Source of the DNA: Neorhizobium galegae
GTDB taxonomy: Bacteria > Pseudomonadota > Alphaproteobacteria > Rhizobiales > Rhizobiaceae
DNA: 64,000 nucleotides
Assembly (NCBI RefSeq): GCF_017877055.1
Contig: NZ_JAGIPG010000003.1
Span: 744,001 to 808,000, forward strand
Direction of reading: 5' to 3'
Position numbers and translations under genes: made by a program. Of the stretch, positions 18,383 through 57,871 are shown piece by piece. The first letter of the stretch is position 1; every line of letters begins with the position of its first letter. The notes beneath the pieces are model-generated. The model did not search any database. It had not been told where the DNA came from and saw only the letters and a list, made by a program, of their open reading frames with translations.

Positions 18383-18443
18383 GCCCGTCCCTGCCGTTCG
18401 TCTGCGCGCGGCAGAAGCCGCTATCCGGCGACAGGATGGACTG

Positions 18444-21145: not shown

Positions 21146-21215
21146 CGGTTCTGTTCTCTCGAAAATTGTTCTTTGATCTGAAAGCGGCAACTGCTGGTCA
21201 ATTGGATTTGCGAAA

Positions 21216-39493: not shown

Positions 39494-40150
39494 GTGCTTC
39501 AGCTCAACAGACTTTCCCGTCTCGGAAACCAGACAATTGAAGGGGTCCTCGATGAAGAGGACAGGCAGGAGATGATCGAGTCAGCCTCCGCCAAGATCCG
39601 GGAGCTCTTCGACGTCCTGAAAATCGATCACGTCAACGATCACAATACACGGGACACACCCAAGCGCTTTGCCAAGATGCTCGTGTGCGAAACACTGGAC
39701 GGTCGCTATTCCCTTCCGCCAAAGATCACCGAGTTCGAAAATGTTGGCGCCTTCGACGGCCTTATCGTCACCGGTCCGATCGAACTTCGCTCCACATGCG
39801 CGCACCACCTCATGCCAATTCACGGCAGCGTCTATATCGGCGTACTGCCATCGACCAACGGCAAGATCATAGGCCTGTCCAAATACGACCGCATCGTCCA
39901 CTATTTCGCGTCCCGGCTACAAATCCAGGAGGAGCTGGTAAGGCAGATCGGCGACTTCGTTTACGAGAAAACACAGCCAGAGGGCGTTGCCGTCCGCATC
40001 AGTGCCGTTCACATGTGCAAAACGCACCGCGGCATCAGAGCATCGCAGGCCAGCCGTATGATAACGACCGCCTATTACGGGAAATTCGAGACGGACCAAG
40101 CGGCAAAGTCTGATTTCCTTCAGGAATGCAAAGCGCTGGAGAGGTTTTGA
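39494..40150 (+). CDS. folE: GTP cyclohydrolase I (218 aa)
   Basis: It opens the purine ring of GTP to give dihydroneopterin triphosphate. The tunnelling-fold motifs are present: STCAHHLMPIHGSVYIGVLPS with zinc Cys and His, IIGLSKYDRIVHYF, LQIQEELVRQIGDF with the GTP-binding Glu, and SAVHMCKTHRGIRAS with the second zinc Cys. The usual CEHH is CAHH here. The GTG start at 39494 is set by TAAGGAG six bases upstream; the frame is open 24 bp further. It is the first gene of a long plus-strand cluster and precedes a PTPS gene by 6 bp. Confidence 0.93.
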   Translation: MLQLNRLSRLGNQTIEGVLDEEDRQEMIESASAKIRELFDVLKIDHVNDHNTRDTPKRFAKMLVCETLDGRYSLPPKITEFENVGAFDGLIVTGPIELRSTCAHHLMPIHGSVYIGVLPSTNGKIIGLSKYDRIVHYFASRLQIQEELVRQIGDFVYEKTQPEGVAVRISAVHMCKTHRGIRASQASRMITTAYYGKFETDQAAKSDFLQECKALERF

Positions 40151-40156
40151 TCAACG

Positions 40157-40690
40157 ATGGACACATTCGCCGATCCCACTCTCCGTCCTGCCCGAGCCGG
40201 CGCCAGGCCGATGGAAATCTACAGATCGACCAAGAGCTACGATCACAATGAAGGGTTGTCGTGCTGTTTCCGTCAATGGCGCGCAGACTCGCATTGCAGG
40301 CTTGTCCACGGCTATGCCCTGGCAGTGAAGCTGGTATTTGCGACCCCGCATCTCGATCACCGCAATTGGTGCCTCGACTTCGGTTCTCTGAAGCCCGTGA
40401 AAGCGTGGCTGCATGACCTTCTCGACCACACGATGATCGCTGCCGCCGACGACCCCGAACTGCCCCGACTTCAAGATCTTGCGGCCGCCGGACTGGTGGA
40501 CCTCCGCATTCTGCCGGCAGTGGGTTGCGAGGCGCTGGCCAAGCACGTGCACGATCATGTGTCGCAGGTTACCGCTGAGATGACCAAGGGGCGCGTATCG
40601 CTCGAGTCCGTGGAAATCCGGGAGCACGCGGGAAATTCTGCGATCTACGAAGTGCGCACGAATTGGAATTCTACGGCGGCGTTGCCGTGA
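40157..40690 (+). CDS. 6-pyruvoyl-tetrahydropterin synthase / 6-carboxy-tetrahydropterin synthase family (177 aa)
   Basis: The T-fold protein has CCFRQWRADSHCRLVHGYAL with candidate zinc His residues and the catalytic Cys, then NWCLDFGSLKPVKAWLHDLLDHTMI and VSLESVEIREHAGNSAIYEV (substrate-binding Glu). The usual HGH is HGY, as I recall for the alphaproteobacterial subgroup. It would convert dihydroneopterin triphosphate to a 6-substituted tetrahydropterin. QueE/QueC partners are absent from the window, so a queuosine role is not supported here. Confidence 0.88.
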   Translation: MDTFADPTLRPARAGARPMEIYRSTKSYDHNEGLSCCFRQWRADSHCRLVHGYALAVKLVFATPHLDHRNWCLDFGSLKPVKAWLHDLLDHTMIAAADDPELPRLQDLAAAGLVDLRILPAVGCEALAKHVHDHVSQVTAEMTKGRVSLESVEIREHAGNSAIYEVRTNWNSTAALP

Positions 40691-40870
40691 TGGCAGCGCA
40701 CCTTGACAACCGACGGACCGAGCGCCGCTTTCGGGAAGCGCCCCCCGAACTGGACGCCAGTCGACGACGCAGCCGCGCTCTCAACACCTCGCAAGCCCGC
40801 CTCTTCATTGAGAAGGCTCCTATTTGCCGACCCCCGCTCGCTCGCAACACGCAGAACTCTCGGTGGCACA

Positions 40871-41740
40871 ATGTATCCCGCATCGTTCCGGTATCACAGA
40901 CCGTCCGGACTTCATCATGCCCTGGAGCTTCTCTCTCGGCATAAGGCGGATGCAGCAATCCTCGCCGGCGGGCAGAGTCTGGTCCCGCGCATGAACCTGC
41001 GTCAGGCAACTCCTGAAAATATCGTCGATCTCAACAGGATTGCCGACCTGTCGAAGCTCGCCGTCGTGAATGACGTTCTGGAAATCGGAGCGATGGTCCG
41101 CCATCAGAGCTTCTGTTGTGAAGCTGCGATCGGCTTTCTTTCACTGCCGTCCGGCTTTGCGGAACTTCTTGGTCGAATGGCAGACACAATCGGAAACCTG
41201 CCGATCAGGCTGAGAGGAACCATCGGCGGCAGCCTCGCCAATGCCAGTCCGAAAGCGCAGTGGGCCTTGCTGTCGTTTCTGCTGGATGCCGACATCGTCA
41301 TCGAGAATGCCGGAGGCACGCGCTGCGAGCGCTATACACAGTTCGTAAAAGGGGACGGCAGAACGACGCTGAAACCGGACGATCTTATTACCAATGTCAG
41401 GATCAAGGTTCCCCCGGCAGAATGGCGGTATGGGTTTGCCCAACTCGCCCCGCAGCCAAACCGGCCCGCTTCCGCATTCGCCCTGGTCGCCATCACCTTG
41501 GAAGATGCTCGCGTACGCGATTGCCGTATTGCCATTGGCGCCTGCACGCCCGTTCCTTGCCGTCTGCACGCGCTGGAAGATTGGCTGTCCGGTCGCCGGG
41601 CCTCCGTCAGCGGCAGTGATGATCTTGTCGAAATCGCAGCAGCAGCAGTTCGACAACAGGGCGGCGAAAGCCAGCCCTATATCGAACACCTCGCTGTCGT
41701 GGCGACGACGCGTGCAATCGCGCAGGCAGTGGAGTGCTGA
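40871..41740 (+). CDS. Molybdenum hydroxylase FAD subunit, CoxM/XdhB type (289 aa)
   Basis: The FAD-binding PCMH fold is shown by FRYHRPSGLHHALELLSRH, AAILAGGQSLVPRMNLRQA (flavin pyrophosphate loop), NIVDLNRIADL, IRLRGTIGGSLANASPKAQWAL (second FAD loop) and the C-terminal CO-dehydrogenase flavoprotein domain. The frame extends upstream to 40703, but the ATG at 40871 gives the normal length. It partners the next two genes as a heterotrimer in the cytoplasm. Confidence 0.93.
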   Translation: MYPASFRYHRPSGLHHALELLSRHKADAAILAGGQSLVPRMNLRQATPENIVDLNRIADLSKLAVVNDVLEIGAMVRHQSFCCEAAIGFLSLPSGFAELLGRMADTIGNLPIRLRGTIGGSLANASPKAQWALLSFLLDADIVIENAGGTRCERYTQFVKGDGRTTLKPDDLITNVRIKVPPAEWRYGFAQLAPQPNRPASAFALVAITLEDARVRDCRIAIGACTPVPCRLHALEDWLSGRRASVSGSDDLVEIAAAAVRQQGGESQPYIEHLAVVATTRAIAQAVEC

Positions 41741-42231
41741 TGGAGGACACCGAGCTTCACACCATCTCCTTCACGTTGAACGGCGTCACCCAGCGTCTGC
41801 GAGTGGCGGCCCGGCGATCGTTGACCGATGTTCTCGGTCAAGAATGCGGCATGAAAAGTGCTCATATGGGCTGCGGCCAGGGCGATTGCGGGTCCTGCAC
41901 GGTCAGCGTCGACGGCGTACCGATCAGAGGATGCCTACTTTTCGCCGTTCAGGCCGACGGCGCCGATATTCGAACGGCAGAGGCCCTGGCCAACCCCGAT
42001 TCGCTCGCTGCAATCCGAAACGCCTTCAAAAAACATCGGGCGATACAATGCGGCTATTGCACGCCGGGCTTCATGGTCCTGGCCGATTACATACTGCGGA
42101 ACGAATTGTCGCTCGATCAGGCCATTCAGACGCTGTCCGCCAACCTGTGCCGGTGCACCGGATATAGTCCCATCGTGTCGGCGGTCGCCGATCTTCTGGC
42201 AGCGCGCGCCGAACGTGGATCGGGACCATGA
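41740..42231 (+). CDS. Molybdenum hydroxylase 2Fe-2S subunit (163 aa)
   Basis: Both iron-sulfur clusters can be placed: the plant-ferredoxin type CGMKSAHMGCGQGDCGSCTV and, after about 38 residues, the helical-domain cluster CGYCTPG ... LCRCTGY. It passes electrons from the Mo centre to FAD. The TGATG overlap with the preceding gene sets the start and implies coupling. Confidence 0.96.
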   Translation: MEDTELHTISFTLNGVTQRLRVAARRSLTDVLGQECGMKSAHMGCGQGDCGSCTVSVDGVPIRGCLLFAVQADGADIRTAEALANPDSLAAIRNAFKKHRAIQCGYCTPGFMVLADYILRNELSLDQAIQTLSANLCRCTGYSPIVSAVADLLAARAERGSGP

Positions 42232-44534
42232 ACATGATAGGCCAGTCCATCGACAGGGTGGAAGACGACGACCTGCTGCAAGCCAGCACTCGGTTTGTCG
42301 GCTCGCTGGCGTTTGAAAACATGCTGCATATGCATGTCGTCCGATCCCCCTATGCCCATGCTCGCTTGAAGAACGTGACTGTCGGCAAAGCCGCCAGTGC
42401 CCCGGGTGTGGTCGCGGTGTGGACCGGAAACGACATACGCGAACTTCCCCCCATCGGGTTCCGCCGTATACCCGACCGCGACCTGCTGCAGCATCGGCAG
42501 CCAGTTATGGCATTGGACGAATTGCGCTACGTCGGCGAACCCGCCGCGATTGTGTTGGCCACCGATCCCTGCCTTGCCGAAGATGCAGGCCGGCTGATCG
42601 CGATCAATGCCGAAATACGGCCGCCCGTTCTCGACTGCGGAACTGAAACGGACGCCCGGACCGAGGCCCGCATGCGCGGCAGCAATGAAGTCGCGCGGAT
42701 TGAAAAAGGCTACGGCGACGTCGAGGCGGCGTTCGCGGCGGCCGAACATAAAATCTCCATTTCATGCCGACTTGCGCGGCAAACGGCCGTGCCGATGGAG
42801 ACGCGGGGCGCAATCGCGGTGCCGCATCCGGCTGCAGCCGGCTTCGACCTTTATGGCGCGGCAAAGGTTCCGCACGCCAATCGCCAGGAACTCGCCCGGA
42901 TATTGTCTCTGGATATCGGCGGCGTCGTCTTGCGGGAGGGGCATGCCGGTGGGGGATTTGGCGTCAGGGGCGAACTGTACCCGGAGGATGTTCTGGTGGC
43001 CTTTGCCGCGCTGCGGCTGGGCCGCCCCGTTAAATGGATCGAAGACCGGTCAGAGCACTTCCTCGCCATCAACCACTCCCGCGATCAGACTATCCACCTC
43101 AATGCGGCCGTCAGCAAGACAGGCATCATTGCGGCTTTGCGCGCCAGAATTACGACGGACCAAGGCGCCTATCTTCGAACCCACGAGATCAAGGTTTCCG
43201 ACCTGTCTTGTGCCTTTCTGCCCGGACCGTACCGCATTCCGGCCTATCAGGCGACAGCGACGGTGCACCTGACCAACAAGACCCCTTGCGGAACATATCG
43301 CGCACCAGGCCGATTCGAGGCAACCTTTGCCATGGAGCGGATGATTGATGCGATTGCCAGGACCCTCGAGCTGGACCCCGTGGAAGTTCGCCGCAGGAAC
43401 CTCATCAGCGCCGCGGACATGCCGTTCGACCGGCAAATCGAAGCCACCGGGAAAAGGGTCGTGTATGACTCGGGAGATTATCTCCAGACGCTGGATACGG
43501 CGATACGGGCCTTCGACCTTCCGGAACTGAGACGCTCCGCCGAAGAGCGCAGGCAGCGAGGCGAGTGCATCGGTATCGGCCTGGCCATGTTCGTGGAGAA
43601 GACCGATACCGCGCTCCACGAAACAGCCCGTCTCGAACTGGCGGCCGACGGCAAGATAGAGATCGTCACCGGCACCTCTTCGCTCGGGCAGGGCATGGAG
43701 ACGGCCTTGGCACAGATCGCGGCGGATGGGCTTGGTTTCCCGATTGACGTCTTCCGTATCGTGCGTGGGCAAACGGATCGCATCTCCCAAAGTGGCGGGA
43801 CATTCGCCTCTCGCACCACCGTCATGGCTGGCTCGGCCATCCACGAGGCCAGTCGTATTTTCCGCCGGAAACTGATCGAAACATCCGCCGCGCTCCTCGG
43901 CGCAACCACAGAGGTGATCACCCTTCGCCGCGACGGCTGCTGCATCAACGGCCGGAATGTGGCTCTTTCCGAACTGCGCGCCATGATCGACGCGTCCGCT
44001 CACTCCACGCAGCTCATTGCCGAAGCCGATTTCAGCTCCGGAGCCATGGCCTGCCCCTACGGCGTGCACATAGCCCAGGTGAAGGTCGATCCGGACGACC
44101 TGAGTGTCACGGTGGAGAAGTACCATATTGCCTACGAGATCGGCCGGGCTGTCAATCCGGATCTCGTCAAGGCTCAATTGCTGGGCGGCGCGATGCAAGG
44201 CATCGGCGGCGCCCTGATGGAAGAAATATCATTCTCCAGCGACGGCCAGCCCCTGACGACCTCGTTTGCCGACTACGTGACGCCGAGGATCGTCGATGTG
44301 CCGGCGTTCGAAATTCTGTTGCTCGAGGATTGGCCGAGCCCCACGAACCCGCTCGGACTGAAGGGCGCGGGCGAGGGAGGCATCAATGCTGCCGGTGCCG
44401 CAGTCGCGGCGGCTGTGGAAGATGCGTTCGCCGCGAAAATAGCGCCGCGGCGGCTGCCGATAACGCCGAAAGCCCTGTTCGACCTCCTGTCCAAAACAGA
44501 CGACGGGCTCATCTCCCCGCTCCGGCGGCGGTAA
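42228..44534 (+). CDS. Molybdenum hydroxylase large (Mo-pterin) subunit (768 aa)
   Basis: Full-length xanthine-dehydrogenase/CoxL-family catalytic subunit, coupled by ATGA. Visible are the N-terminal RVEDDDLLQASTRFVG, LRYVGEPAAIVLA, the GHAGGGFGVRGELYPEDV cofactor loop, CGTYRAPGRFEATFAMERMID, GTSSLGQGMETALAQIAAD, and the active-site Glu in LKGAGEGGINAAGAA. Such enzymes hydroxylate purines, pterins, pyridines and aldehydes. Next to pterin-forming genes, a pterin or pyrimidine substrate is plausible (inference). Confidence 0.95.
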   Translation: MNMIGQSIDRVEDDDLLQASTRFVGSLAFENMLHMHVVRSPYAHARLKNVTVGKAASAPGVVAVWTGNDIRELPPIGFRRIPDRDLLQHRQPVMALDELRYVGEPAAIVLATDPCLAEDAGRLIAINAEIRPPVLDCGTETDARTEARMRGSNEVARIEKGYGDVEAAFAAAEHKISISCRLARQTAVPMETRGAIAVPHPAAAGFDLYGAAKVPHANRQELARILSLDIGGVVLREGHAGGGFGVRGELYPEDVLVAFAALRLGRPVKWIEDRSEHFLAINHSRDQTIHLNAAVSKTGIIAALRARITTDQGAYLRTHEIKVSDLSCAFLPGPYRIPAYQATATVHLTNKTPCGTYRAPGRFEATFAMERMIDAIARTLELDPVEVRRRNLISAADMPFDRQIEATGKRVVYDSGDYLQTLDTAIRAFDLPELRRSAEERRQRGECIGIGLAMFVEKTDTALHETARLELAADGKIEIVTGTSSLGQGMETALAQIAADGLGFPIDVFRIVRGQTDRISQSGGTFASRTTVMAGSAIHEASRIFRRKLIETSAALLGATTEVITLRRDGCCINGRNVALSELRAMIDASAHSTQLIAEADFSSGAMACPYGVHIAQVKVDPDDLSVTVEKYHIAYEIGRAVNPDLVKAQLLGGAMQGIGGALMEEISFSSDGQPLTTSFADYVTPRIVDVPAFEILLLEDWPSPTNPLGLKGAGEGGINAAGAAVAAAVEDAFAAKIAPRRLPITPKALFDLLSKTDDGLISPLRRR

Positions 44535-44560: not shown

Positions 44561-45592
44561 ATGGCCATTGATACGCATGCCCACTACGTTCCCAAAGAGG
44601 TGCTGGATGTCCTGGACGAGCGGGCTCAGGATTTCGGTATCACCATGCACCGTGATACGCCCGGGGCGATACCCGCACTGCACTTTGACTATGGTCTCAA
44701 AGTACGTCCCTTCTTTCCGCAACTGGTGGAGACGGTCGAGCAAAGATTGCAGGGCATGGCCGAGATGGGCGTTTCCCATCAGGTGCTCAGTCAATGGACC
44801 GATATCTTCGCCTATTCGCTGCCGAAGGAAAAGGCGACGGCGTGGCACAGGCTCATGAACAGCGCCTATCGGCATCTTTGCGCCCAATATCCCGACAGGT
44901 TCTCGTTCATCGCATCCATTCCGCTGAATGAACCCGAGCTTGCAGCGTCCGAAGTCGAACATGCGGTGCTTTCGATGGGAGCTGTCGGCATATGTCTTGC
45001 TGCCAATGTGGAGGACGTCAACCTGGGCGATATCGACCTGGATCCATTGTGGTCGAAACTCCAGCAAATGGACGTGCCGGTCATGATCCACCCCGTCCAG
45101 GCCGTGCCGGGAGCGCGGATCAAGAAATATGCGCTCACGCAGGTCGTCCAATATCCATACGATACGACTTTGGCGATTGGATCGCTGGTGGGCTCGGGCG
45201 TGCTCGATCGATTTCCGGGATTGCGGATCCTGATTTCGCACGGGGGCGGTCTGCTGCCATTCCTCATGGGGCGTTTTGATCGGCTCTATGTGCGGATGAA
45301 CAAGGCACAGCAGCAATATGTCGCGGAGCGAGAAACGTCTCATTATGTGAAGAATTTCTTCTTCGACACGGTTGTCCATAGCCCGAAAATCCTCCGCTTC
45401 CTGGCTGAAAGCGTATCCCCGGATAGAATCGTCCTGGGAACCGACTACTCCTTTCCTCCCGCCGACATGACCCCGCTGCGAACGATCGAGGCGAGCGGTC
45501 TCTCGGCAGAAGACTGCCTGAAGATCTCGGTCGAGAACGCCTACGCGCTTTTTCCAAGGCTACGGCGACAGCAGCAGCTGCGCGCCGGCTAG
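44561..45592 (+). CDS. Amidohydrolase 2 family, ACMSD-like decarboxylase/hydrolase (343 aa)
   Basis: A metal-dependent TIM barrel: the first two ligands are in DTHAHYVP, the third His in VPVMIHPVQA, the fourth in RILISHGGGLLPF and the catalytic Asp in VLGTDYSFPP. This order matches the ACMSD/gamma-resorcylate decarboxylase/isoorotate decarboxylase group. It might decarboxylate a heteroaromatic acid made by the molybdenum hydroxylase. No kynurenine-pathway genes are nearby, so a tryptophan role is not supported. Confidence 0.9.
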   Translation: MAIDTHAHYVPKEVLDVLDERAQDFGITMHRDTPGAIPALHFDYGLKVRPFFPQLVETVEQRLQGMAEMGVSHQVLSQWTDIFAYSLPKEKATAWHRLMNSAYRHLCAQYPDRFSFIASIPLNEPELAASEVEHAVLSMGAVGICLAANVEDVNLGDIDLDPLWSKLQQMDVPVMIHPVQAVPGARIKKYALTQVVQYPYDTTLAIGSLVGSGVLDRFPGLRILISHGGGLLPFLMGRFDRLYVRMNKAQQQYVAERETSHYVKNFFFDTVVHSPKILRFLAESVSPDRIVLGTDYSFPPADMTPLRTIEASGLSAEDCLKISVENAYALFPRLRRQQQLRAG

Positions 45593-45748
45593 ACCTCTGG
45601 CGACAGCACAACTGCCGGCATCGTCCGCTCCTTGGCTTCATGCGATTTCGGACGGAAATCGGCTACGCACAGATCTCGGAATTGCTGTGAACACCCTTGG
45701 TTTTCTGTTTCTGCCGTGAAGGCAGTACACAACGACACGGACAGAAAA

Positions 45749-46330
45749 ATGCGAACCCTTCTCCTGTATTCTCATCCCGTTGAATCAAGCTACGGCGCCT
45801 CCCTTTTCGAGCAAACGAGACTTGGCCTGGAGCAGGCCGGACATCAGGTGGACTGCTGCGATCTTTATGCAGAGGGGTTTACACCGGTTCTGACCCGCCA
45901 TGAGCGATTGATATACCACGACGTTCCCATCAATCGCCAAAACGTGGAATCCTATGTGCAACGCCTCAAGAATGCCGAGGCGCTGGTACTGGTCACTCCG
46001 ATCTGGCACTTCGGCTTTCCCGCCATGCTCAAAGGGTTCTTTGACCGGGTCTTTCTGCCTGGCGTATCCTTTGAACTGCACGATGAGCGCATGCGTTACG
46101 TTCTCCAGCACATCAGAAAGCTGGCCGCCGTGACGACGTATGGAGCGGATCGCTCGAAAGCATTTCTTGTCGGGGATCCACCACGCAAGGTGGTTACGCG
46201 CGTCATCCGAGCCCAGATCCACCCGATGGCCAAGACCGTCTACCTTGCGCACTACGGCATGAACCGTTCAACGGACGCGACACGCCGGAAATTTCTCTCC
46301 AAGGTGCGCAGCCAGATGGAAAAGTTCTGA
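45749..46330 (+). CDS. NAD(P)H-dependent quinone reductase-like flavoprotein, NQO1/KefF family (193 aa)
   Basis: The flavodoxin-like fold is shown by LLLYSHPVESSYGASLFEQT, the VTPIWHFGFPAMLKGFFDRVFLPG FMN/FAD segment (read in two blocks) and KLAAVTTYGADRS. It is a soluble FAD or FMN oxidoreductase. It could reduce flavin for the RutA-like monooxygenase at 49110 or reduce a quinonoid pterin (both inference). The ribosome site is weak; the start is set by alignment of the fold. Confidence 0.88.
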   Translation: MRTLLLYSHPVESSYGASLFEQTRLGLEQAGHQVDCCDLYAEGFTPVLTRHERLIYHDVPINRQNVESYVQRLKNAEALVLVTPIWHFGFPAMLKGFFDRVFLPGVSFELHDERMRYVLQHIRKLAAVTTYGADRSKAFLVGDPPRKVVTRVIRAQIHPMAKTVYLAHYGMNRSTDATRRKFLSKVRSQMEKF

Positions 46331-46575: not shown

Positions 46576-47616
46576 ATGTTGTATCATCGTGTAAGCGTTA
46601 GTGCGCCAAGCCGCTTCCATCTGACGTTGGCAGATTTGAATGGCTCTTTTTCCGATCGTGTGGACGGGGGAGTGGGCTTCGCGCTTTCGAGTCCAAGATT
46701 TGAGATCACGGCGACGCAAGCGACGGGTCGCAACGCCATCACATGCGATATCGATGACCCCGAAGACCGCGTCGAGGCCGAAAACGCCATTGAGGCCGCA
46801 CTCGGGGCGTTGCACCAGAAGCTGCGCCTGCCCGAAGTCGACATTTTCGTGAAGTCGCCCGTATCGTCACACGCCGGGCTCGGCTCGAAGACGGCTCTGC
46901 TGCTTGGAATCGCGAAAGCCTATACGACGCTTTACGGTTATGAGTTTCCCGGTCGCGAACTCGCCCGCTTTGTCGGACGCGGCGGAACGTCGGGCATTGG
47001 CTCCAACTGCTTCGACCAGGGAGGCTTTGTCGTCGACTGCGGCCATCGGGCGGAAGTCAAGGCGGGTGCGTTCATGACGTCCGGCTGGGCCACGGACATC
47101 CCGCCCGGCCCCCTGCTCGCGCGTTATGACATGCCCGATTGGCCGATGCTGCTTGTCACCCCCATCGCCCGCAAGATCCATGGCGCGCTGGAGCAGCAGC
47201 TCTTCGCCCAGGTCTGCCCCATCCCGATGGAAGACGTCCGGGCGGTGAGCCACATCACAATGATGATGCTTATTCCCGCCGTGATCGAGGACGATCCGAA
47301 AATCTTCGCCCGCGGCATCAACGAGCTACAGAAATGCCGATGGAAATCTCACCAGATCGAGTGCCAGGCGGAAGTGGTGCCCGTCGTCATGGAAAAGCTA
47401 CGTGAAATGGGCGTCAGCGGCGTTGCCATGAGCAGTTGGGGCTCTTCCATCCTCGCAATGGGTCCGGAAATGGATGATCCGGCTTTCCGGACCGGGATTG
47501 TCGCCGCCATCCAGCAGGTCATGAATGACTACGACGGCGGGACCGTGTCGGAGATACGGTGCGACAATGTGGGACACAAACTCAGGACCTTCCGGGTTCC
47601 TGCGCTTCAGGCCTGA
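46576..47616 (+). CDS. Beta-ribofuranosylaminobenzene 5'-phosphate synthase-like enzyme (ForT/PyfQ-type; 346 aa)
   Basis: A GHMP-kinase-fold enzyme of the beta-RFAP synthase family: VSAPSRFHLTLADLNGSFSDRVDGGVGFAL at the N-terminus, VKSPVSSHAGLGSKTALLLGIAKA (the glycine-rich loop), RGGTSGIGSNCFDQGGFVVDCGH, and a C-terminal GVSGVAMSSWGSSILAM. The family joins PRPP to an aromatic acid with loss of CO2, giving a C-riboside: pABA in methanopterin biosynthesis, a pyrazole acid in formycin (ForT) and pyrazofurin (PyfQ). No methanopterin genes are visible here. The start at 46576 gives the usual length. The acceptor in this cluster is unknown. Confidence 0.87.
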   Translation: MLYHRVSVSAPSRFHLTLADLNGSFSDRVDGGVGFALSSPRFEITATQATGRNAITCDIDDPEDRVEAENAIEAALGALHQKLRLPEVDIFVKSPVSSHAGLGSKTALLLGIAKAYTTLYGYEFPGRELARFVGRGGTSGIGSNCFDQGGFVVDCGHRAEVKAGAFMTSGWATDIPPGPLLARYDMPDWPMLLVTPIARKIHGALEQQLFAQVCPIPMEDVRAVSHITMMMLIPAVIEDDPKIFARGINELQKCRWKSHQIECQAEVVPVVMEKLREMGVSGVAMSSWGSSILAMGPEMDDPAFRTGIVAAIQQVMNDYDGGTVSEIRCDNVGHKLRTFRVPALQA

Positions 47617-47624: not shown

Positions 47625-49070
47625 ATGCGGACATTGATCGAAAACCTCGACGCGTTGTTTCTGGTCGATAATGACGACACCATCCTTCGCAATGCCAGCG
47701 TCGTGCTCGAAGGCAAGCGTATCGCCGATGTCGGGCCGGCCGCCGAGGTGGCAGGCCGCCACGATCGAGCGTCCTTCGATACGATCATGGATGGACGGCA
47801 ACGGGCGCTTTGCCCAGGCTTCATCGATACGCATGTGCACCTGTCGGAGACGCTTTCGCGGGGGGTATTCCCGGACAACCTGAACACTCGGGCCTGGGTC
47901 TTCAATTGGGCAAAGCCCTTCTATGCGCATATCGATCGCGAGGATGAATATTGGGGTGCTTTGCTTGGCATCTGCGAGATGTTGCGCAGCGGGACGACAT
48001 GCTTCCTCGATATGGGTTCGCAATTCGATCCGGCCCACGTGGTGGACGCGATCGAGCAGTCCGGAATCCGCGGCATCACCGGACGGCACGCCGCCGACAA
48101 CCGCCCCAGGGACATTCCGCCCGGCTGGTCGGAAGAAATGATGCGGCATCATTTCTTCGACGATGCCGAAACGGCCCTGGCTGCGCTTGAAGATTGCGTC
48201 CACCGCTTCAATGGCGGGGCCGACGGGCGCATCCGTTGCTGGGTCAACATCGAAGGAAAGGAGCCCTGTTCGCTGGAGCTGCATGTCGGTGCAAGGGCGC
48301 TGGCGGAGCGCCTGGGGGTCGGCACGACCTATCATCTGGCGACCTCTATCGAGGAGGCCCGCATATGCGAGAAAAACCACGGCGCCTGGCCGGTATCGAG
48401 AATTCAGGCGGCGGGGGGATTGGGAAGCAACCTGGTGATCGCTCATTGCGTCGCCGTCAACGACGAAGACCTGGACGCTCTCTCCGCCGGAGACGTCAAG
48501 GTCGCCTTCTGCCCCTGCTCTTCCCTCAAGTTGGGAAAGGGTGCCAGCGCCATAGGCCGCTACAAAGAAATGCTGGACAGGGGCATAACGGTCAGCCTTG
48601 GAACAGATGGCGTTTCTGCTGCGGGCAACCTGAATCTGATGCGCCAGATGCATATCGTTTCCGGCCTCTTCAAGGATGCCCATATTGATCCGGACGCGGT
48701 CGGCGCGCGCAAGGCCCTGAGAATGGCGACCATCGAGGCGGCCTGCGCCCTGCTCTGGGACGATGAGATCGGCTCCATCGAGGTCGGCAAGCAGGCCGAC
48801 TTCATTCTGTTCGATACCGATCACATCGAGTGGACGCCTTATCACGATCCGCTTCAGACCCTCGTCTATTCCGCGTCCGTCAACTCCATCGTCGAGACCT
48901 GGGTCGCCGGACGCGCTCTCTATAGGGGCGGCAGGATCAACTCGCTGGACGAAGCCGACATAAAGCGAAAGGCAAGAGAACGCGCAGCAGCAGCAGTGAG
49001 GAGGGCGGGTCTCGCCGATGTCCAGACGGCGGCGGCTGCGGTGACCCAGCTTTATGATGAAGGCAATTGA
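47625..49070 (+). CDS. ATZ/TRZ-type amidohydrolase (aminohydrolase/deaminase, 481 aa)
   Basis: Cyclic-amidohydrolase superfamily: the metal His pair in CPGFIDTHVHLSETL, a His in VIAHCVAVNDEDLDAL, and the Asp in TVSLGTDGVSAAGN, which matches SAH/guanine/8-oxoguanine deaminases and triazine hydrolases. The N- and C-terminal beta-sandwich is complete (ALFLVDNDDTILRNASVV; IGSIEVGKQADFILFDTDHI). It probably deaminates a purine, pterin or pyrimidine. It follows the beta-RFAP-like gene by eight bases. Confidence 0.92.
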   Translation: MRTLIENLDALFLVDNDDTILRNASVVLEGKRIADVGPAAEVAGRHDRASFDTIMDGRQRALCPGFIDTHVHLSETLSRGVFPDNLNTRAWVFNWAKPFYAHIDREDEYWGALLGICEMLRSGTTCFLDMGSQFDPAHVVDAIEQSGIRGITGRHAADNRPRDIPPGWSEEMMRHHFFDDAETALAALEDCVHRFNGGADGRIRCWVNIEGKEPCSLELHVGARALAERLGVGTTYHLATSIEEARICEKNHGAWPVSRIQAAGGLGSNLVIAHCVAVNDEDLDALSAGDVKVAFCPCSSLKLGKGASAIGRYKEMLDRGITVSLGTDGVSAAGNLNLMRQMHIVSGLFKDAHIDPDAVGARKALRMATIEAACALLWDDEIGSIEVGKQADFILFDTDHIEWTPYHDPLQTLVYSASVNSIVETWVAGRALYRGGRINSLDEADIKRKARERAAAAVRRAGLADVQTAAAAVTQLYDEGN

Positions 49071-49109: not shown

Positions 49110-50222
49110 ATGCGCACCCTGGAACTTGGCGTTTTCATGCCGGTCGGCACGAATGGCTTTCTGATGTCCACAACGGCACCAAGATATCAGCCGACCTTCG
49201 CGCTTGAGAGGAGCATCGCGGCGCTTGCGGAAGAGGCCGGCTTCGACTTCCTCTTTTCAATGGGAAAATGGATGGGGTTCGGCGGCAGGAGCGGCTTTTG
49301 GGAACAGACGATCGAGCCGGTCGTCATGAGCGCAGCGCTGGCCGGCGTGACGAACAGGATCAAGCTGTTCGCAACCATCAACCCGCTGCTCTTTCACCCC
49401 GTCGTCGCGGCGAAAATGATTGCCACGATCGACGAAATCAGCGGCGGCCGCTTCGGCGTCAACATCGTCACCGGAAACACGCTTGAAGAACTCGAGCAGA
49501 TGGGAGTCGTGCCCGAAGGATATGAGAGCTTCCGCTATGAATATGCCGACGAATGGCTGACTGTTGTCAAGCAATTGTGGACGCAACAGCGCCTCACCCA
49601 CGACGGTCGCTTCTTTCAACTGACCAACTGCGTCTGCGATCCGAAGCCGATCCAAAAGCCCTATCCGCCGATCATCTCAGCCGGACTGTCCGATGAAGGC
49701 CTCCGTTTCGGAGCCAAGCATTCGAACTATCAATTTGTCGGCGCCCGTCCAGAAAAAGTGGACCATGTAAAAGCCTTCGCTGCCGAAGAGGGGCGCGACT
49801 TGAAGGTTTCAGCCAACATGCTGATCGTGGCCGGCAGCTCCGATCAGGCCGCTCACGATCGTTTCGAGCGCTTGCTCGACGGCCGGGACAACGAGGCTTT
49901 CGACAACCTCATCGCCTCGTTCGAGAGGGACAATCGGGACTCTTCCGAAGGCCGGACGTCCTTTCTGCGCAATCCGCGCATGATCGGCTTCGGCACCGGA
50001 GCACCGATCATCGGATCCTACGACACGATTGCCGAGCAACTCGCTCAGGTCGCGACAGACGCGAAATTCGATGCCATTCAACTCACCTTTATCGACTTCA
50101 TCGACGACCTGAAGGATTTCGGCAGGCAAATTTATCCGGGATTGAAGGCACGTCTGGCACGGCACGACATTCGGCTCGGCCAGGACGTTGCCGCTTCCGC
50201 AAGGGCCGCCGAGCATGCGTGA
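49110..50222 (+). CDS. RutA-like flavin-dependent pyrimidine/amide monooxygenase (370 aa)
   Basis: The N-terminal half closely follows E. coli RutA as I know it: LGVFMPVGTNGFLMSTTAPRYQPTF, FDFLFSMGKWMGFGGRSGFW, IATIDEISGGRFGVNIVTGN and, later, GSYDTIAEQLAQVATDAKFD. RutA opens the uracil ring with reduced FMN and oxygen; wider family members are amide-cleaving monooxygenases. It is far from the two LLM enzymes of region 1 in sequence. No rutB-rutG genes are adjacent, so a uracil Rut pathway is not implied. Confidence 0.9.
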   Translation: MRTLELGVFMPVGTNGFLMSTTAPRYQPTFALERSIAALAEEAGFDFLFSMGKWMGFGGRSGFWEQTIEPVVMSAALAGVTNRIKLFATINPLLFHPVVAAKMIATIDEISGGRFGVNIVTGNTLEELEQMGVVPEGYESFRYEYADEWLTVVKQLWTQQRLTHDGRFFQLTNCVCDPKPIQKPYPPIISAGLSDEGLRFGAKHSNYQFVGARPEKVDHVKAFAAEEGRDLKVSANMLIVAGSSDQAAHDRFERLLDGRDNEAFDNLIASFERDNRDSSEGRTSFLRNPRMIGFGTGAPIIGSYDTIAEQLAQVATDAKFDAIQLTFIDFIDDLKDFGRQIYPGLKARLARHDIRLGQDVAASARAAEHA

Positions 50223-51927
50223 CGCCCGGCATGGCACCAATAAGGCCCGCATAGCCCATCTGGCGGGGCCGAACGCGACAATCCACAATACTCCGCCACT
50301 GGTGACATCCAACAAGGCTCGAGCCATTCACGCTCTCCCCTTGCTAACCGATGTCGATGGAAACCCATCGCGTTACGACAGCTTGCGCCCGCAGAGACTG
50401 GCTGTACCCGTCCACGTTTACATCGAGCAGTTCTCCGCGCATCCGCTCGAGGCCGACGCTGCTCATCTCTACGCGCCGCCGGACGGCTACGTCGATAGCC
50501 AGGGCAATTTCAGTACAACGGAGACTGCCACGGCCAATCGGCCTGTCTTTCGTGTGGAGCTGAGGCCGGAGGACGGTTACTATCCCCTGCCCTATATGGC
50601 CCGACAGCGGGACGGAAGCGCCTGGGAAACGGATGGCGTGTCATCCTTTGCCGCGCGGGAAATGAGCCGCCAACCTTTCATGCCGGACGGCAGCCGCACC
50701 TTCGAGGAAGTGGACAGGCTGGGTGTGGACCCGAAAGGACGCGGCAGCGCAATCCACGACATTGCGGATGTGGAGTTTTACCGCGTCGCCCCATCCGGTG
50801 GCTACATGAACGGCGTTCCGAGCGGCGAAAGCAGCGGTCACGCCGATGGCACCGGTGCGATCGAGGTTTCAGGGAGGGACTTCTTTCCCTACAGACCCCC
50901 GCATTTGAGCAGATCGCCCCCGCGAACGACGCTGGCCCGAATAGCCAACGCCACCCAAAAAATCCTGCGTGACGGTCATTATGACGGAGCGATCTGGACA
51001 CAGGGCAGTCCTCGCATCGAGGAAACGATTTACTGGTTAAACCTCGTTCTCGACGTGACGGTACCCGTTTGCGGAAATGCATCGCAGCGCTATCACGGCG
51101 AAACGAGCAATGACGGTCCGCGCAACCTCATCGATTCCGTGCACTACATCTCTTCCGGTTGCTGGGCCGATGCGGAAGGACACAACCGGGCGGGAGCCGT
51201 TCTGGTACAGGACCAACGTGTGTTCGCCGCAAGGGAGGTTGTGAAAGTCGACGCGCGACCCGGCGGCTTCGCCGCCAGCGGCGGACATGGCGGCATTATC
51301 GGCGCGGCATCTGAAGGCCGCTCTCGGCTTTGCTTTACCCCCAACGCCAAACACACCTACCAGTCCGAGTTGAATATCAGCCGGCTGCCTGCATCCGTCT
51401 GCGGGATTACGCAACGCGATGGCACGATAGGACGCATCGAAATTCCGATCAAAACCCCTTCCGGCGACCTGCGCGACGACGCCATTCCCTATGTGTCCAT
51501 CGTCAAGGACTACAGCTACTCCGAGGACGACTTCGGCATTCATCCGGAAAACGAGGTGGATATCGTCGCAATTCTGCGGAAATGCCTGACGTCTCATCCG
51601 CTTGCCGGCTTCGTTCTCGAAGGGCTCTCGCCCTACGGCAAGCCTGCATCCGCCTCGAAACTGGCGGCACTCGAACGCGCGGTCTATTGCGGTCTCCCGA
51701 TAGTATGCGTCGGTCGCGGCAATACGGAAGGTTTTGCCCGTCACAGCCGCAGTTTTATCGGCGGGTCGAACCTGACCGCAACGAAGGCCCGAATGCTGCT
51801 GATGCTCTGCATCATGAAGTTCGGGATGCTGCCGCCCGCCACGGATGCGGAACACCCGTCTGAAGCAGAGAGAAACGCGACAGAGCAACATCTCGACCGT
51901 TATCGGAAGATCTTTGACACCCATTGA
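50215..51927 (+). CDS. Asparaginase/glutaminase-superfamily protein with altered active site (570 aa)
   Basis: The C-terminal 330 residues follow the L-asparaginase fold: DGAIWTQGSPRIEETIYWLNL lines up with the HGTDTxEETAYFL motif, ETSNDGPRNLIDSV with SADGPLNL, and GFVLEGLSPYG with the C-terminal domain. The N-terminal segment ARIAHLAGPNATIHNT aligns with ATGGTIAST. The catalytic Thr-Asp pair of HGTDT is replaced (QGSPR), and about 200 residues are inserted between the first and second motifs. It overlaps the RutA-like gene by 8 bp. It probably acts on an amide or ring-opened product, but the chemistry is unclear. Confidence 0.75.
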   Translation: MRDARHGTNKARIAHLAGPNATIHNTPPLVTSNKARAIHALPLLTDVDGNPSRYDSLRPQRLAVPVHVYIEQFSAHPLEADAAHLYAPPDGYVDSQGNFSTTETATANRPVFRVELRPEDGYYPLPYMARQRDGSAWETDGVSSFAAREMSRQPFMPDGSRTFEEVDRLGVDPKGRGSAIHDIADVEFYRVAPSGGYMNGVPSGESSGHADGTGAIEVSGRDFFPYRPPHLSRSPPRTTLARIANATQKILRDGHYDGAIWTQGSPRIEETIYWLNLVLDVTVPVCGNASQRYHGETSNDGPRNLIDSVHYISSGCWADAEGHNRAGAVLVQDQRVFAAREVVKVDARPGGFAASGGHGGIIGAASEGRSRLCFTPNAKHTYQSELNISRLPASVCGITQRDGTIGRIEIPIKTPSGDLRDDAIPYVSIVKDYSYSEDDFGIHPENEVDIVAILRKCLTSHPLAGFVLEGLSPYGKPASASKLAALERAVYCGLPIVCVGRGNTEGFARHSRSFIGGSNLTATKARMLLMLCIMKFGMLPPATDAEHPSEAERNATEQHLDRYRKIFDTH

Positions 51928-52040: not shown

Positions 52041-53006
52041 ATGTGGGTCACCTTTGCCACGCTCGCGGGCGTAACACTTGGCTGCGGCGACTTGGCTCTA
52101 AAGATGGCACTGCCCAATCTTCAGCCGCGCATTGCCTGTTTCACGCTGTATTTCCTGGGTCTAATTCTATGGATCCCGATATTTCTCATGCTCGGTCTCG
52201 CGCCAGCCGCCCTTGAGGCGGTGCACCTGTCACCAGCGGCGCATGGAATGGTGATCGGCCGATCCCTGTTACAATTCGGCGCCTATGCGCCGATATTCAT
52301 CGTTCTGCGCAATCTGCCCTTGGGAACCTATGCGGCCCTGCGTGCACTGTCGCCGGCACTTTCGGTCGTTGCAGGCACAATCTTCTACGGTGATCGCCCG
52401 AACGCCCCGGAATATCTGGGGATCGGGGCCATTTTGAGTGGTGTCGTGCTGGTGGCCTGGGAGCGCAAGACTGCAGCCCACTCCAGCATCGTGGCACCGG
52501 CATCCGACCACCTCTGGTTGGCAAATATGGTGCTTACGATCATAGCCGCGACTTGTTCTGGTTTGATGTCGATCTATGACAAACACCTGTTATCGACAGT
52601 CCCGGCCAATCTGTTCGTTCTGCAGGCGCTGTCCGATGCCTACCGCATGGGCCTTCTCACTCTTCTTCTGGCATTTTCCACGCGACCGGCCCTCGCCCGC
52701 CCGCTAAAATGGAATTGGCGAAGGCGTGACGGTGGGCATCTGCCGCTTCTCTATCTGGGCCTTGCATCCCTACTGATAGCCTTTGGGGAGATTTTCTCGT
52801 TTTACGCCGTTTCCTTTCCGGACAGCATGCCGTCCATCGTCGCAATATTGAGGCGTTCAAGCCTTCCGGTTTCGGTAATTCTCGCCAATCTCTTTTTCAG
52901 AGAGCGCCTGACGGAGAAGAAAATGCTCGGCATGGCGTCCATCATGGCGGGCGTCGCCCTTATCAATGCCGGCTGGACCTCCGATCTTGCTCCGACGCCG
53001 ACATGA
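52041..53006 (+). CDS. DMT-superfamily (EamA-type) transporter (321 aa)
   Basis: About ten membrane helices in two EamA repeats: VTFATLAGVTLGCGDLALKM ... FYGDRPNAPEYLGIGAILSGVVLVAWE for repeat one, and SIVAILRRSSLPVSVILANLFFRERLTEKKMLGMASIMAGVALIN for repeat two (both read in blocks). Exporters of metabolites and nucleosides are known in this family. GGAGGAACG supports the start. It is the third exporter gene in the region after the MFS and LysE types. Confidence 0.9.
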   Translation: MWVTFATLAGVTLGCGDLALKMALPNLQPRIACFTLYFLGLILWIPIFLMLGLAPAALEAVHLSPAAHGMVIGRSLLQFGAYAPIFIVLRNLPLGTYAALRALSPALSVVAGTIFYGDRPNAPEYLGIGAILSGVVLVAWERKTAAHSSIVAPASDHLWLANMVLTIIAATCSGLMSIYDKHLLSTVPANLFVLQALSDAYRMGLLTLLLAFSTRPALARPLKWNWRRRDGGHLPLLYLGLASLLIAFGEIFSFYAVSFPDSMPSIVAILRRSSLPVSVILANLFFRERLTEKKMLGMASIMAGVALINAGWTSDLAPTPT

Positions 53007-53230: not shown

Positions 53231-54118
53231 ATGACGGTTGAACCATTGCAGTTGAGCGATTTTTCCCGCGATGACCACGGTTCGATTGGCCTGGTCCGCG
53301 AAAGCGTTCCGCGTCCGTTCAAGCCCACGGTGGTGGCGGAAATGTCCCGTGTCGTTTCCAATGACGCGGTCAATGCGGAATATTATCATCTGGTCGTCGA
53401 GTGCGGCCCCGTGGCCGCGGCTGCCGAACCTGGGCAGTTTTTTAGCCTGCTTTGCCCAAAATTGCCGGGCGAAGAGCCGTTTCTACGACGCCCGATGAGC
53501 CTTTACGGCACGAACCCGCACCAGGGACGGATCGAGTTTCTCTACAAGGTCGTCGGCTCGGGAACGCGTGGCCTTGCGACCCTGAAGCGCGGCGACCTGC
53601 TTGACATAATGGGGCCCCTCGGACGCGGTTTCGCACTCGATCCAGGCTTGACGGATATTGTCGCAGTCGGACGCGGCGCGGGGCTCGCCACGCTTGCACC
53701 GCTGGCGAAGGCCGCAAGGCGTAACGGCACCCGCGTCACGGCCGTCTTCAGCGCTCGCAGACCTGACCTCATGGTCTCTGTCGGGCTTTTCGAGGAGCAA
53801 GGGGCGACCGTCATACAGGTGACGGATCAGGAGGCGACGAGCGGCCCGGCCAATGTGGAGCGTATTCTGCGCGAATTGATCACGGACGGTCGCTGCCAGG
53901 CCTTTTTCACCTGTGGGTCCAGCCGGCTGATGAGGGTCCAGCAGCGCCTCGCGGAGGAGTTTTCGCTGCCGGGCCAGGTGGCGATCGAACAACAAATGGC
54001 CTGCGGTATCGGGCTTTGTTTTTGCTGCGTCAGGGACTTCAATGTCGGTGGCACTATCGTCAATCGCCGGGTCTGCTGGGACGGTCCGGTGTTCGATCTT
54101 TTAGAGACTCTGCCATGA
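53231..54118 (+). CDS. pyrK: Dihydroorotate dehydrogenase electron-transfer subunit-like protein (295 aa)
   Basis: The FAD domain has FLRRPMSLYGTNPHQGRIEFLYKVVGSGTRGL and GDLLDIMGPLGRGF; the NAD domain follows (DIVAVGRGAGLATLAPLAK). The C-terminus carries the 2Fe-2S Cys set CGIGLCFCCVRDF ... RRVCWDGPVF of PyrK. It couples NADH to the class 1B dihydroorotate dehydrogenase next door (ATGA overlap). It is about 35 residues longer at the N-terminus than B. subtilis PyrK; an ATG at 53342 would give a shorter form. Confidence 0.92.
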   Translation: MTVEPLQLSDFSRDDHGSIGLVRESVPRPFKPTVVAEMSRVVSNDAVNAEYYHLVVECGPVAAAAEPGQFFSLLCPKLPGEEPFLRRPMSLYGTNPHQGRIEFLYKVVGSGTRGLATLKRGDLLDIMGPLGRGFALDPGLTDIVAVGRGAGLATLAPLAKAARRNGTRVTAVFSARRPDLMVSVGLFEEQGATVIQVTDQEATSGPANVERILRELITDGRCQAFFTCGSSRLMRVQQRLAEEFSLPGQVAIEQQMACGIGLCFCCVRDFNVGGTIVNRRVCWDGPVFDLLETLP

Positions 54119-55074
54119 AGCTTGAGACCGATATCGACATGTCGGTGAAGATCGGCGAACTGACGCTGAAGAATCCCATCATGCCCGCGTCGGGAACCTT
54201 CGCTGAAGGCCTGTCGCAGGTGATGGATTTCGACCGCCTGGGCGCGATCGTCACCAAGACTGTCACCAGAGAAGTCCGGGCCGGCAACCCGACCCCCCGC
54301 GTCGTCGAGCGCCCAAACAGCATGATCAATGCGATCGGCATCCCATCCAAAGGCGTTGCGCATTTCGTCGAGAAGATTATCCCGCTTTATGCCCATTTAT
54401 CCACGCCGCTCGTCGTCAGCATCTCGGCGCCTACTGCAGACGGTTTTGCCTGCCTGGCCCGCGATCTTTCGCTCCCCGGCGTAGCCGCCATCGAAGCGAA
54501 CATTTCCTGCCCGAACATCGAGGAGGACGGCAAGGCGTTTGCCATGAACGCGGACTCGACCGCCACGGTGACGCGCGCGTTGCGCGCCGCCACCGATCTT
54601 CCGCTGTGGATCAAGCTTACCCCGAATACCGGAGACATGCCGGCAGTTGCGCGTGCCGGGGAAGCCGAGGGAGCGGATGCGCTGGTTGTCGCCAACACGA
54701 TTCTGTCGATGGCAATCGATCTCAAGACGTTCAAACCGAGTCTCGGCAATGTCATGGGGGGGCTGTCCGGCCCGGCGGTCAAGCCGATCGTTCTGCGCCA
54801 GGTTTTCCAGTGTGCGAACGCGGTCGACATTCCGATCATCGGCTGCGGTGGCATCTCATCCGCCGAGGACGTAATCGAATATATGCTGGCCGGCGCACGC
54901 GCGGTGCAAGTGGGAACGGCCACCTTTCTTCAACCCAACATCATGCCCCGGATCATAGAGGACCTGCAGGCGTTTTGTTATCACCGACAGATCAACCGGG
55001 CTTCGGCCCTGACCGGAGCACTGTTGATCGAGGAAGCCGACGAGAGTGACCTCTCCTGGCTGGATCCGCAGTAA
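54115..55074 (+). CDS. pyrD: Dihydroorotate dehydrogenase-like flavoprotein, class 1B (319 aa)
   Basis: FMN barrel with LKNPIMPASGTFAEGLSQVMD, VERPNSMINAIGIPSKGV, EANISCPNIEEDG (the Cys base of class 1 enzymes), LWIKLTPNTGD, and IIGCGGISSAEDVIEYMLAGARAVQVGTA. It oxidises dihydroorotate or, run in reverse, reduces a pyrimidine. In a cluster with an N-carbamoyl hydrolase and RutA-like enzyme, a role in pyrimidine reduction/breakdown or on an analogue is possible. The start overlaps pyrK by ATGA, and the stop overlaps the next start by TAATG. Confidence 0.93.
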   Translation: MKLETDIDMSVKIGELTLKNPIMPASGTFAEGLSQVMDFDRLGAIVTKTVTREVRAGNPTPRVVERPNSMINAIGIPSKGVAHFVEKIIPLYAHLSTPLVVSISAPTADGFACLARDLSLPGVAAIEANISCPNIEEDGKAFAMNADSTATVTRALRAATDLPLWIKLTPNTGDMPAVARAGEAEGADALVVANTILSMAIDLKTFKPSLGNVMGGLSGPAVKPIVLRQVFQCANAVDIPIIGCGGISSAEDVIEYMLAGARAVQVGTATFLQPNIMPRIIEDLQAFCYHRQINRASALTGALLIEEADESDLSWLDPQ

Positions 55075-57829: not shown

Positions 57830-57871
57830 ATCTCTCGTAATCTTAGCAAAACCACAGTTCTGGCGGCCTGG

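Follow-up and report, generated by a model that had tools for sequence, protein, structure and literature searches.

A beta-RFAP-synthase/ForT-family enzyme in a conserved rhizobial gene cluster without methanopterin markers

Gene content of the locus

The stretch of DNA analyzed here (the window, 64,000 nucleotides, positions 744,001-808,000 of contig NZ_JAGIPG010000003.1 of Neorhizobium galegae) carries a gene for a member of the beta-ribofuranosylaminobenzene 5'-phosphate (beta-RFAP) synthase/ForT family (hereafter RFAPS). The comparisons described below support well the conclusion that this enzyme belongs to a specialized and conserved cluster that is devoid of methanopterin markers. The initial annotation listed GTP cyclohydrolase I, a 6-pyruvoyltetrahydropterin synthase-like protein (PTPS), a molybdenum (Mo) hydroxylase, a deaminase, a RutA-like oxygenase and PyrKD as its neighbors, and family scans recovered all of them (Table 1).

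The open reading frame (ORF) of the RFAPS gene starts with ATG, runs uninterrupted to a stop at 47616 and encodes 346 amino acids; a longer frame with a TTG start at 46390 is also listed. The product scores 229.5 bits with the beta-RFAP-synthase family model TIGR00144 (cut-off 113.5) and is thus a member of that family. Its top match among PDB structures is ForT (6yqq; phmmer E 6.9e-37), with 35.5% identity across the aligned part. At the level of sequence, these matches confirm the original assignment of the protein to the beta-RFAP-synthase/ForT family. With the equivalog model NF040726 it scores 265.3 bits, under the cut-off of 328, which none of nine scanned relatives reached: two proteins from the window clade scored 263 and 289, and the other seven 151-206, including five MptG-side proteins at 151-186. 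The close relatives with names come from Neorhizobium sp. EC2-8 (95% identity) and Rhizobiales bacterium AFS068226 (93%). The ratio of nonsynonymous to synonymous substitution rates between the window gene and the AFS068226 copy is 0.054, indicating purifying selection. The AlphaFold model of the protein was poor (mean model confidence, pLDDT, 43) and was not used.

Table 1. Genes of the RFAPS locus and its flanks, ordered by position in the window
Feature	Coordinates	Strand	Family or match
dTMP-kinase-like (tmk)	20474-21190	-	TIGR00041 111.6 bits, cut-off 83.25; 50% identity in A. tumefaciens cl001
Nucleotidyltransferase-like protein 2	21964-22998	+	26% identical to 27991-29001
Nucleotidyltransferase-like protein 1	27991-29001	+	GTLVEGIGxxxSDLD stretch; no Pfam family
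PyrF type 2 (orotidine-5'-phosphate decarboxylase), second of the genome	31885-32811	-	TIGR02127 233.8 bits
GTP cyclohydrolase I (FolE), second and divergent copy	39470-40150	+	PF01227 149.5 bits
PTPS/QueD-type 6-carboxytetrahydropterin synthase-like	40157-40690	+	PF01242
Mo-hydroxylase FAD subunit	40865-41740	+	FAD_binding_5 (on longer TTG-start ORF, from 40703)
Mo-hydroxylase 2Fe-2S subunit	41734-42231	+	Fer2_2
Mo-hydroxylase molybdopterin subunit	42228-44534	+	MoCoBD_1/2
ACMSD/uracil-5-carboxylate-decarboxylase-like metal enzyme	44561-45592	+	Amidohydro_2
Flavodoxin-fold NAD(P)H/FMN reductase	45749-46330	+	Flavodoxin_2, FMN_red (longer ORF 45632-46330)
Beta-RFAP-synthase/ForT-family C-ribosyl synthase	46576-47616	+	TIGR00144, ForT match
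ATZ/TRZ-type amidohydrolase, putative deaminase, directly downstream of RFAPS	47625-49070	+	Amidohydro_1
RutA-like flavin (luciferase-like, LLM) monooxygenase	49110-50222	+	TIGR03612 277.5 bits, below cut-off 498.3
Asparaginase-like amidohydrolase	50188-51927	+	PF00710
EamA-type transporter	52041-53006	+	PF00892
PyrK-like electron-transfer subunit	53231-54118	+	DHODB_Fe-S_bind
PyrD, class 1B dihydroorotate dehydrogenase	54112-55074	+	NF005574 340.3 bits, cut-off 269
M20 carbamoyl-amino-acid hydrolase	55074-56363	+	TIGR01879 282.9 bits, cut-off 204
NMT1/THI5-type ABC transporter (binding protein, ATPase, permease)	56804-59469	+	PF09084, PF00005, PF00528
Metalloenzyme-superfamily gene	59482-60669
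Nucleoside-phosphorylase-like gene	62427-63260		82% identical to one annotated nucleoside phosphorylase

The window PTPS is likely to be of the QueD type, because in Aminobacter SR38 the gene of a relative with 46% identity is flanked by queE and queC; both proteins contain the SHCRxxHGYAL motif. A closer relative (65%) adjoins FolE on Rhizobium rhizogenes plasmid pC6.5b (L096, 15950-19780), in a row resembling polyketide and nonribosomal peptide synthesis genes that also includes a sedoheptulose 7-phosphate cyclase. This row is another sign that the FolE-PTPS pair is used in natural-product-like clusters. A lead concerning agrocin was dropped, as the record proved to be pC6.5b itself.

When compared with known structures, the ACMSD-like protein matches ACMSD (2wm1, E 5.9e-43) and uracil-5-carboxylate decarboxylase (4hk5, E 3.8e-22), and the LLM monooxygenase matches RutA (E 2.9e-70). 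In A. vitis, a relative of the asparaginase-like protein is encoded near a RutA-like LLM gene, and in R. tumorigenes one has formamidase and urease genes as neighbors. Nucleoside import and phosphorolysis had been proposed for the genes further downstream. The phosphorolysis part agrees with the nucleoside-phosphorylase-like gene, and the transport genes proved to be of the NMT1 ABC type, followed by the metalloenzyme-superfamily gene.

The genes of the left part (20.5-38 kb), including PyrF, the tmk-like gene, the two nucleotidyltransferase-like genes, an ATP-grasp gene and an aminotransferase gene, recur in related loci. Neither nucleotidyltransferase-like protein had a match in Pfam, NCBIfam or PADLOC scans; weak fold matches of protein 1 to nucleotidyltransferases come from a low-confidence AlphaFold model (58). 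Relatives of protein 1 were seen in only two plasmid records. A small protein at 38173-38565 (minus strand), possibly a nucleotidase, has a weak match, under the cut-off, to the YfbR-like 5'-deoxynucleotidases; relatives (33-37%) are found where M20 ends in A. tumefaciens cl001 and next to M20 in AFS068226. Several ORFs at 1182-19226, which resemble LLM monooxygenases, alpha/beta-hydrolases, short-chain dehydrogenases and thiamine-diphosphate enzymes and were named by reading their translations, apparently form an unrelated catabolic region.

Catalytic residues and phylogenetic position

Roles of ForT residues were taken from the consulted parts of PMC8183095 and PMC9832568. The ForT residues R19, H99, T106, R135, T138, S139, E211, K263 and Q266 (ForT numbering) are all identical in the window protein; S142, replaced by Gly, is the sole exception named among the PRPP-binding and catalytic positions (PRPP, phosphoribosyl pyrophosphate). 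Binding of PRPP by ForT requires R19, T106 and R135 (PMC8183095, consulted part), and of the ForT variants, E211A alone was measured with confidence to be inactive (PMC9832568, consulted part). At the acceptor site, T138, S174 and K263 are common to the window protein and ForT, whereas all 29 MptG-side rows of our alignment have Arg138 and none has Ser174 or Lys263. Judged by its sequence, the enzyme probably forms a C-C bond between ribose and a ring compound.

The phylogenetic tree contained 38 rows: 32 of the 66 RFAPS-matching loci (duplicates counted), five more loci (L112-L116) and ForT, represented by residues 12-306 only. It was built from sequences other than those of methanogens and without EC2-8, where the gene is split between frames. 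The proteins of the window, AFS068226 and G055, a genome of the same family, form one clade (support 99/98). Together with ForT, Mesorhizobium L-2-11, genome G478, Cupriavidus and two Rhizobium rows that adjoin a DNA methylase, this clade makes up a group of nine rows split from the 29 MptG-side rows with support 100/100. The branches of the tree are long.

The methylase-associated rows represent a recurring four-gene arrangement on plasmids, consisting of a DNA adenine methylase, a small hypothetical protein, an RFAPS relative and a Ham1/AAA protein. It was observed in Rhizobium leguminosarum, R. bangladeshense and Cupriavidus campinensis (L061, 10167-14579; L116, 6186-10583; L064, about 8227-12539). 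The Ham1/AAA protein matches five plasmid records, four of which also have an RFAPS match, and PADLOC recognized only the methylase among five proteins of the R. leguminosarum row. This arrangement is another use of an RFAPS-type enzyme, at present unexplained.

Distribution and methanopterin markers

RFAPS matches at E <= 1e-10 were found in 26 of 151 genomes of the family, and by identity only the window genome and G055 (57%) carry the window kind; in the remaining 24 the identity does not exceed 38%. At the same threshold, 78 of 397 genomes of the order have a match; among the 78 places listed, only the window genome exceeds 37% identity. At E <= 1e-30, matches occur in two of 385 genomes of the class (the window genome and G717) and in one of 398 of the phylum (the window genome). 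A scan of genome contigs with two peptide patterns yielded two loci. No RFAPS relatives were found in searches of viral contigs and phages.

In bacteria that use RFAPS as MptG, the genome is expected to carry other genes of the tetrahydromethanopterin (H4MPT) pathway, and the initial annotation stated that a firm grouping with methylotroph beta-RFAP synthases, in a genome with the full pathway, would make the window protein simply MptG. The marker families of mch (PF02289) and fae (PF08714) were searched in 30 genomes, 28 of them with RFAPS; in named control genomes, the mch search was positive in 3 of 14 and the fae search in 2 of 14. Each marker was found in 25 of the 30 genomes. Both are present in 25 of the 28 RFAPS carriers, and neither was matched in the window genome (99.97% complete), G055 (90% complete) or G478; two genomes of the same genus without RFAPS also have neither. 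On the MptG side, these family searches covered the rows other than L082, the seven from the order and those from plasmids. In four plasmid rows, H4MPT annotation stands beside RFAPS, which adjoins genes for methylene-H4MPT dehydrogenase, mch and fae; the window neighbors differ from these. L063 matches both mch and fae. As far as the two markers tell, the window RFAPS is not a working part of the H4MPT pathway.

Conservation of the cluster

In AFS068226, the gene order is as in the window. The identities are 91% for FolE, 86% for PTPS, 79-85% for the Mo-hydroxylase subunits, 94% for the ACMSD-like protein, 95% for the flavodoxin-fold protein, 93% for RFAPS, 91% for the deaminase, 93% for the LLM monooxygenase and 86% for the asparaginase-like protein; further left, PyrF (94%), a nucleotidyltransferase-like protein (93%) and the genes between them are also conserved. 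The locus of G055 has diverged much further. Its RFAPS (57%) adjoins a deaminase (75% over 446 amino acids), and it also encodes FolE (35%) and the Mo-hydroxylase subunits (FAD 37%, 2Fe-2S 50%, molybdopterin 47%), with PyrF (53%) standing between the FolE and Mo-hydroxylase genes. A relative of nucleotidyltransferase-like protein 1 is 43.5% identical in G055 and 76.5% in A. tumefaciens cl001. Adjacency of RFAPS and deaminase is observed in the window, AFS068226, EC2-8 and G055. The EC2-8 record (L087, about 11188-20000), in which many genes are split between frames, seems to carry two oppositely oriented copies of the major facilitator superfamily (MFS) transporter genes and, close to tmk, a partial match of the nucleotidyltransferase-like kind.

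Two FolE copies are present in each of the window genome, AFS068226 and G055, and one in the same-genus genomes G047 and G140, which lack RFAPS. Since the cluster FolE of G055 is just 35% identical to that of the window, the two loci may have acquired GTP cyclohydrolase I on separate occasions. Elsewhere, the window genome encodes a further PyrF and a further PyrD. The search of G055 found just one full-length PyrF, that of the cluster, and a fragment of 43 residues.

The PyrK, PyrD and M20 genes also stand together in AFS068226, G055 and A. tumefaciens cl001. In G055, their contig carries an XRE regulator, a transporter, PyrC and PyrE (the last three named from sequence reading), an arrangement that looks like orotate use. 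On plasmid pAt1 of A. tumefaciens cl001, a large part of the pyrimidine half is present and the RFAPS half is missing. These comparisons suggest that RFAPS, the deaminase, FolE, the Mo-hydroxylase and PyrF form the core of both types of RFAPS locus, and that PyrKD is separable. The initial interpretation is supported in part: the link of RFAPS with FolE and the Mo-hydroxylase is repeated in the diverged locus, and PyrKD seems to be a module of its own.

Proposed function and alternatives

In the chemistry described for the family, PRPP loses pyrophosphate, the carboxylate-bearing ring carbon of the acceptor attacks C1', and CO2 leaves (PMC8183095, consulted part). Our best explanation, held tentatively, is that the window enzyme is a PRPP-dependent decarboxylating C-ribosyl synthase of a nucleoside-type cluster, with a GTP-derived heteroaromatic acid as the probable acceptor. 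It builds on the observed family, catalytic residues, absence of mch and fae, and neighboring genes; from these we infer the acceptor, the order of steps, the product and the role of PyrF.

FolE forms dihydroneopterin triphosphate, and QueD-type PTPS forms 6-carboxytetrahydropterin. In the proposed pathway, 6-carboxytetrahydropterin would come from GTP cyclohydrolase I and the QueD-type PTPS; the molybdenum hydroxylase would oxidize it, and the amidohydrolase would strip it of its 2-amino group, giving an aromatic 6-carboxylate. In loci of the window type, the RutA-like monooxygenase, the flavin reductase and the asparaginase-like hydrolase might then cleave the pyrimidine ring, so that an aminopyrazine acid remains. 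RFAPS would convert PRPP and the aromatic acid into a C-ribonucleotide, CO2 and pyrophosphate, outside methanopterin metabolism. By chemical reasoning, C6 of a pterin and C8a, to which a ring nitrogen is attached, are para to each other, which parallels the para arrangement of carboxyl and amino group in para-aminobenzoate (pABA); C6 therefore suits ipso ribosylation. An acceptor derived from a carboxylated pterin is probably the best guess, and pABA, 4-hydroxybenzoate and pyrimidine acids are further candidates.

A speculative and rather doubtful extension is that the product is a C-nucleoside antimetabolite with a base built from GTP by way of a pterin, such as a ribosyl-lumazine or a ring-opened ribosyl-aminopyrazine, and that the cluster orotidine 5'-monophosphate (OMP) decarboxylase serves self-protection. 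The cluster PyrF would then be a spare target protecting the producer, a role suggested by pyrazofurin, a C-nucleoside made by an RFAPS relative, whose target is OMP decarboxylase (PMC8724604 and PMC11474200, consulted parts). Alternatively, PyrF may serve a pathway step or orotate use.

Several observations weigh against the reading of the locus as a pterin-based C-nucleoside cluster. On the stretches of G055 that were read, PTPS and the ACMSD-like, flavodoxin-like and asparaginase-like proteins have no match, and G055 has no close LLM monooxygenase, the best match being weak (3.6e-10). Relatives of the deaminase with 68-69% identity stand in loci without RFAPS. In AFS068226, the PyrKD-M20 genes adjoin the nucleoside phosphorylase block at a different site of the contig, and G055 has them on a separate contig. 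A second PyrF copy was seen only in the window genome (AFS068226 was not searched by family), which weakens the idea of a spare target. In ForT, Ser21 holds the acceptor's second carboxylate (PMC8183095/PMC9832568, consulted parts); at this position the window protein has His15, and 29 of 29 MptG-side rows likewise have His; hence a two-carboxylate acceptor as in ForT is not required. The deep placement in the tree is not firm either: the approximately unbiased (AU) test leaves unrejected both the window clade with the MptG side against the other six rows (p 0.205) and the window clade with the ForT group (p 0.273). Of the phylogenetic comparison suggested initially, the grouping with ForT stands in the best tree, and its depth is uncertain.

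A further observation of this kind concerns NF040726, which we take, from its name and scores, to be a model of group 1 archaeal enzymes. When single-letter variants of the window protein were scored (wild type 265.3), T138R gave 261.4, K257A 262.3, S169A 263.1, H226R 262.7, L18F 262.9, H15S 260.1, R255H 265.6, W256F 268.5 and K105G 269.9. The model thus favors T (138), K (257), S (169) and His (15), and Gly at 105, where the window has Lys. As it also favors the letters of T138, S174 and K263, these set the window apart only from the MptG-side rows at hand, and their use as general marks of ForT versus MptG was dropped. The window protein also scores higher with this model than the five MptG-side proteins, and together with the favored letters this suggests that the acceptor may be pABA-like. 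The enzyme appears to differ from bacterial MptG, yet its predicted acceptor contacts are compatible with pABA or 4-hydroxybenzoate.

These letters bear directly on an archaeal-type RFAP synthase acting on pABA or 4-hydroxybenzoate, with the aryl ribotide perhaps joined to a FolE-derived pterin without one-carbon enzymes. Such an enzyme, which we consider unlikely, would account for the fit of the acceptor site and the score, and for FolE at both loci. Window Arg28 aligns with ForT R33, equivalent to methanogen R26 (PMC8183095, consulted part), and Asp20 is, by our estimate, roughly where D19 would be; D19 and R26 affect pABA binding in the M. thermautotrophicus enzyme (PMC6787355, consulted part). 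However, mch and fae are absent, no pterin-coupling or pABA-making family was found among the cluster genes scanned, and this reading gives no role to the Mo-hydroxylase, amidohydrolase and RutA-like genes. FolE is in turn what an acceptor such as orotate or isoorotate fails to explain. If a pyrimidine acid were converted to a pyrimidine C-nucleotide, PyrKD, PyrF and the decarboxylase-like enzyme would act on the same ring, and these genes and the RutA-like one do stand in the row, with PyrF inside the FolE/Mo row of G055; but the PyrKD-M20 module is separable, accompanied by the transporter, PyrC and PyrE in G055 and present without RFAPS in A. tumefaciens cl001, and we regard this possibility as improbable.

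A pathway to a pyrazole C-nucleoside of the formycin/pyrazofurin type is highly improbable, although the enzyme family is shared and formycin-like RFAPS loci exist in related bacteria. Forty window proteins compared with the Mesorhizobium locus match only RFAPS and a Mo subunit, and this candidate was set aside as purC and purH had no match among them; no ForJ/ForK-like gene was recognized in the ORFs scanned, although no dedicated search was made, and the clade is separate. The GHMP fold is common to homoserine and mevalonate kinases, and the protein could in principle have other chemistry, for example as a small-molecule kinase; identity of the PRPP-binding residues and of the essential glutamate with ForT, save for S142 replaced by Gly, makes this very improbable. 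A plain MptG of the H4MPT pathway is suggested by the family name, and the AU test permits deep attachment to the MptG side, but the absence of mch and fae from an almost complete genome and neighbors unlike those of the four annotated H4MPT rows render it extremely improbable, and it was set aside on the absence of these marker families.

The formycin and pyrazofurin clusters with this type of enzyme are both actinobacterial and both build a pyrazole (PMC8724604, consulted part). The proposed C-nucleoside cluster, if real, would be a third kind, rhizobial and with GTP cyclohydrolase I, and would extend the range of acceptors known for C-C ribosylation by enzymes, a matter of interest for the production of C-nucleoside drugs. 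It would also be a sign of a so far unknown metabolite among bacteria of soil and plants; the PyrF of the cluster suggests a target for the product that can be tested directly. In the open-licence literature searched, a pterin-derived base class was not met for C-nucleosides in the text consulted, and no paper was found on a ribosylpterin or pteridine C-nucleoside. Titles and abstract starts gave nothing on an RFAPS-FolE-Mo cluster, and the match to ribofuranosylaminobenzene with Rhizobium concerns, by its listing, another subject.

Comparison with known systems

ForT from the formycin pathway of Streptomyces kaniharaensis (6yqq) shares with the window enzyme the family, the PRPP-binding and catalytic residues, and Ser174 and Lys263 of the acceptor loop. 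Unlike ForT, the window protein has His in place of Ser21, and its neighbors are FolE, Mo-hydroxylase and deaminase genes rather than genes of the pyrazole or purine type. Bacterial MptG proteins from Rhizobiaceae and other groups share the family and the Glu211, Gln266 and His21 positions, but are 25-31% identical to the window protein, have Arg138 and lack Ser174 and Lys263; their genomes have mch and fae in 25 of 25 cases tested in the family set, whereas the window genome has neither. The archaeal group 1 RFAP synthases, represented by NF040726 without methanogen sequences, agree in the T138, S174, K263 and His21 letters and differ in the score (265 < 328), in Lys105 where the model favors Gly, and in the lack of mch and fae in the window genome.

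Formycin-like loci of Mesorhizobium L-2-11, Aminobacter SS-2016 and G478 provide examples of Hyphomicrobiales RFAPS genes away from H4MPT genes. Unlike the window, they carry purC (and purH in two plasmids), and their enzymes are 29-31% identical and form a separate clade. Such clusters (L060, 3764-24690; L086; L117) also contain Rieske and amidohydrolase genes, with purH in plasmids. Finally, in the 41 kb read, A. tumefaciens cl001 pAt1 lacks matches to RFAPS, FolE, the Mo-hydroxylase and the deaminase, but it shares with the window PyrF, tmk, nucleotidyltransferase-like, ATP-grasp, aminotransferase, MFS, ABC, nucleoside phosphorylase, PyrKD and M20 genes. Its genes at 7883-29411 of L083 form one row with two pyrF genes, a NUDIX gene and aminotransferases, perhaps a related nucleoside cluster.

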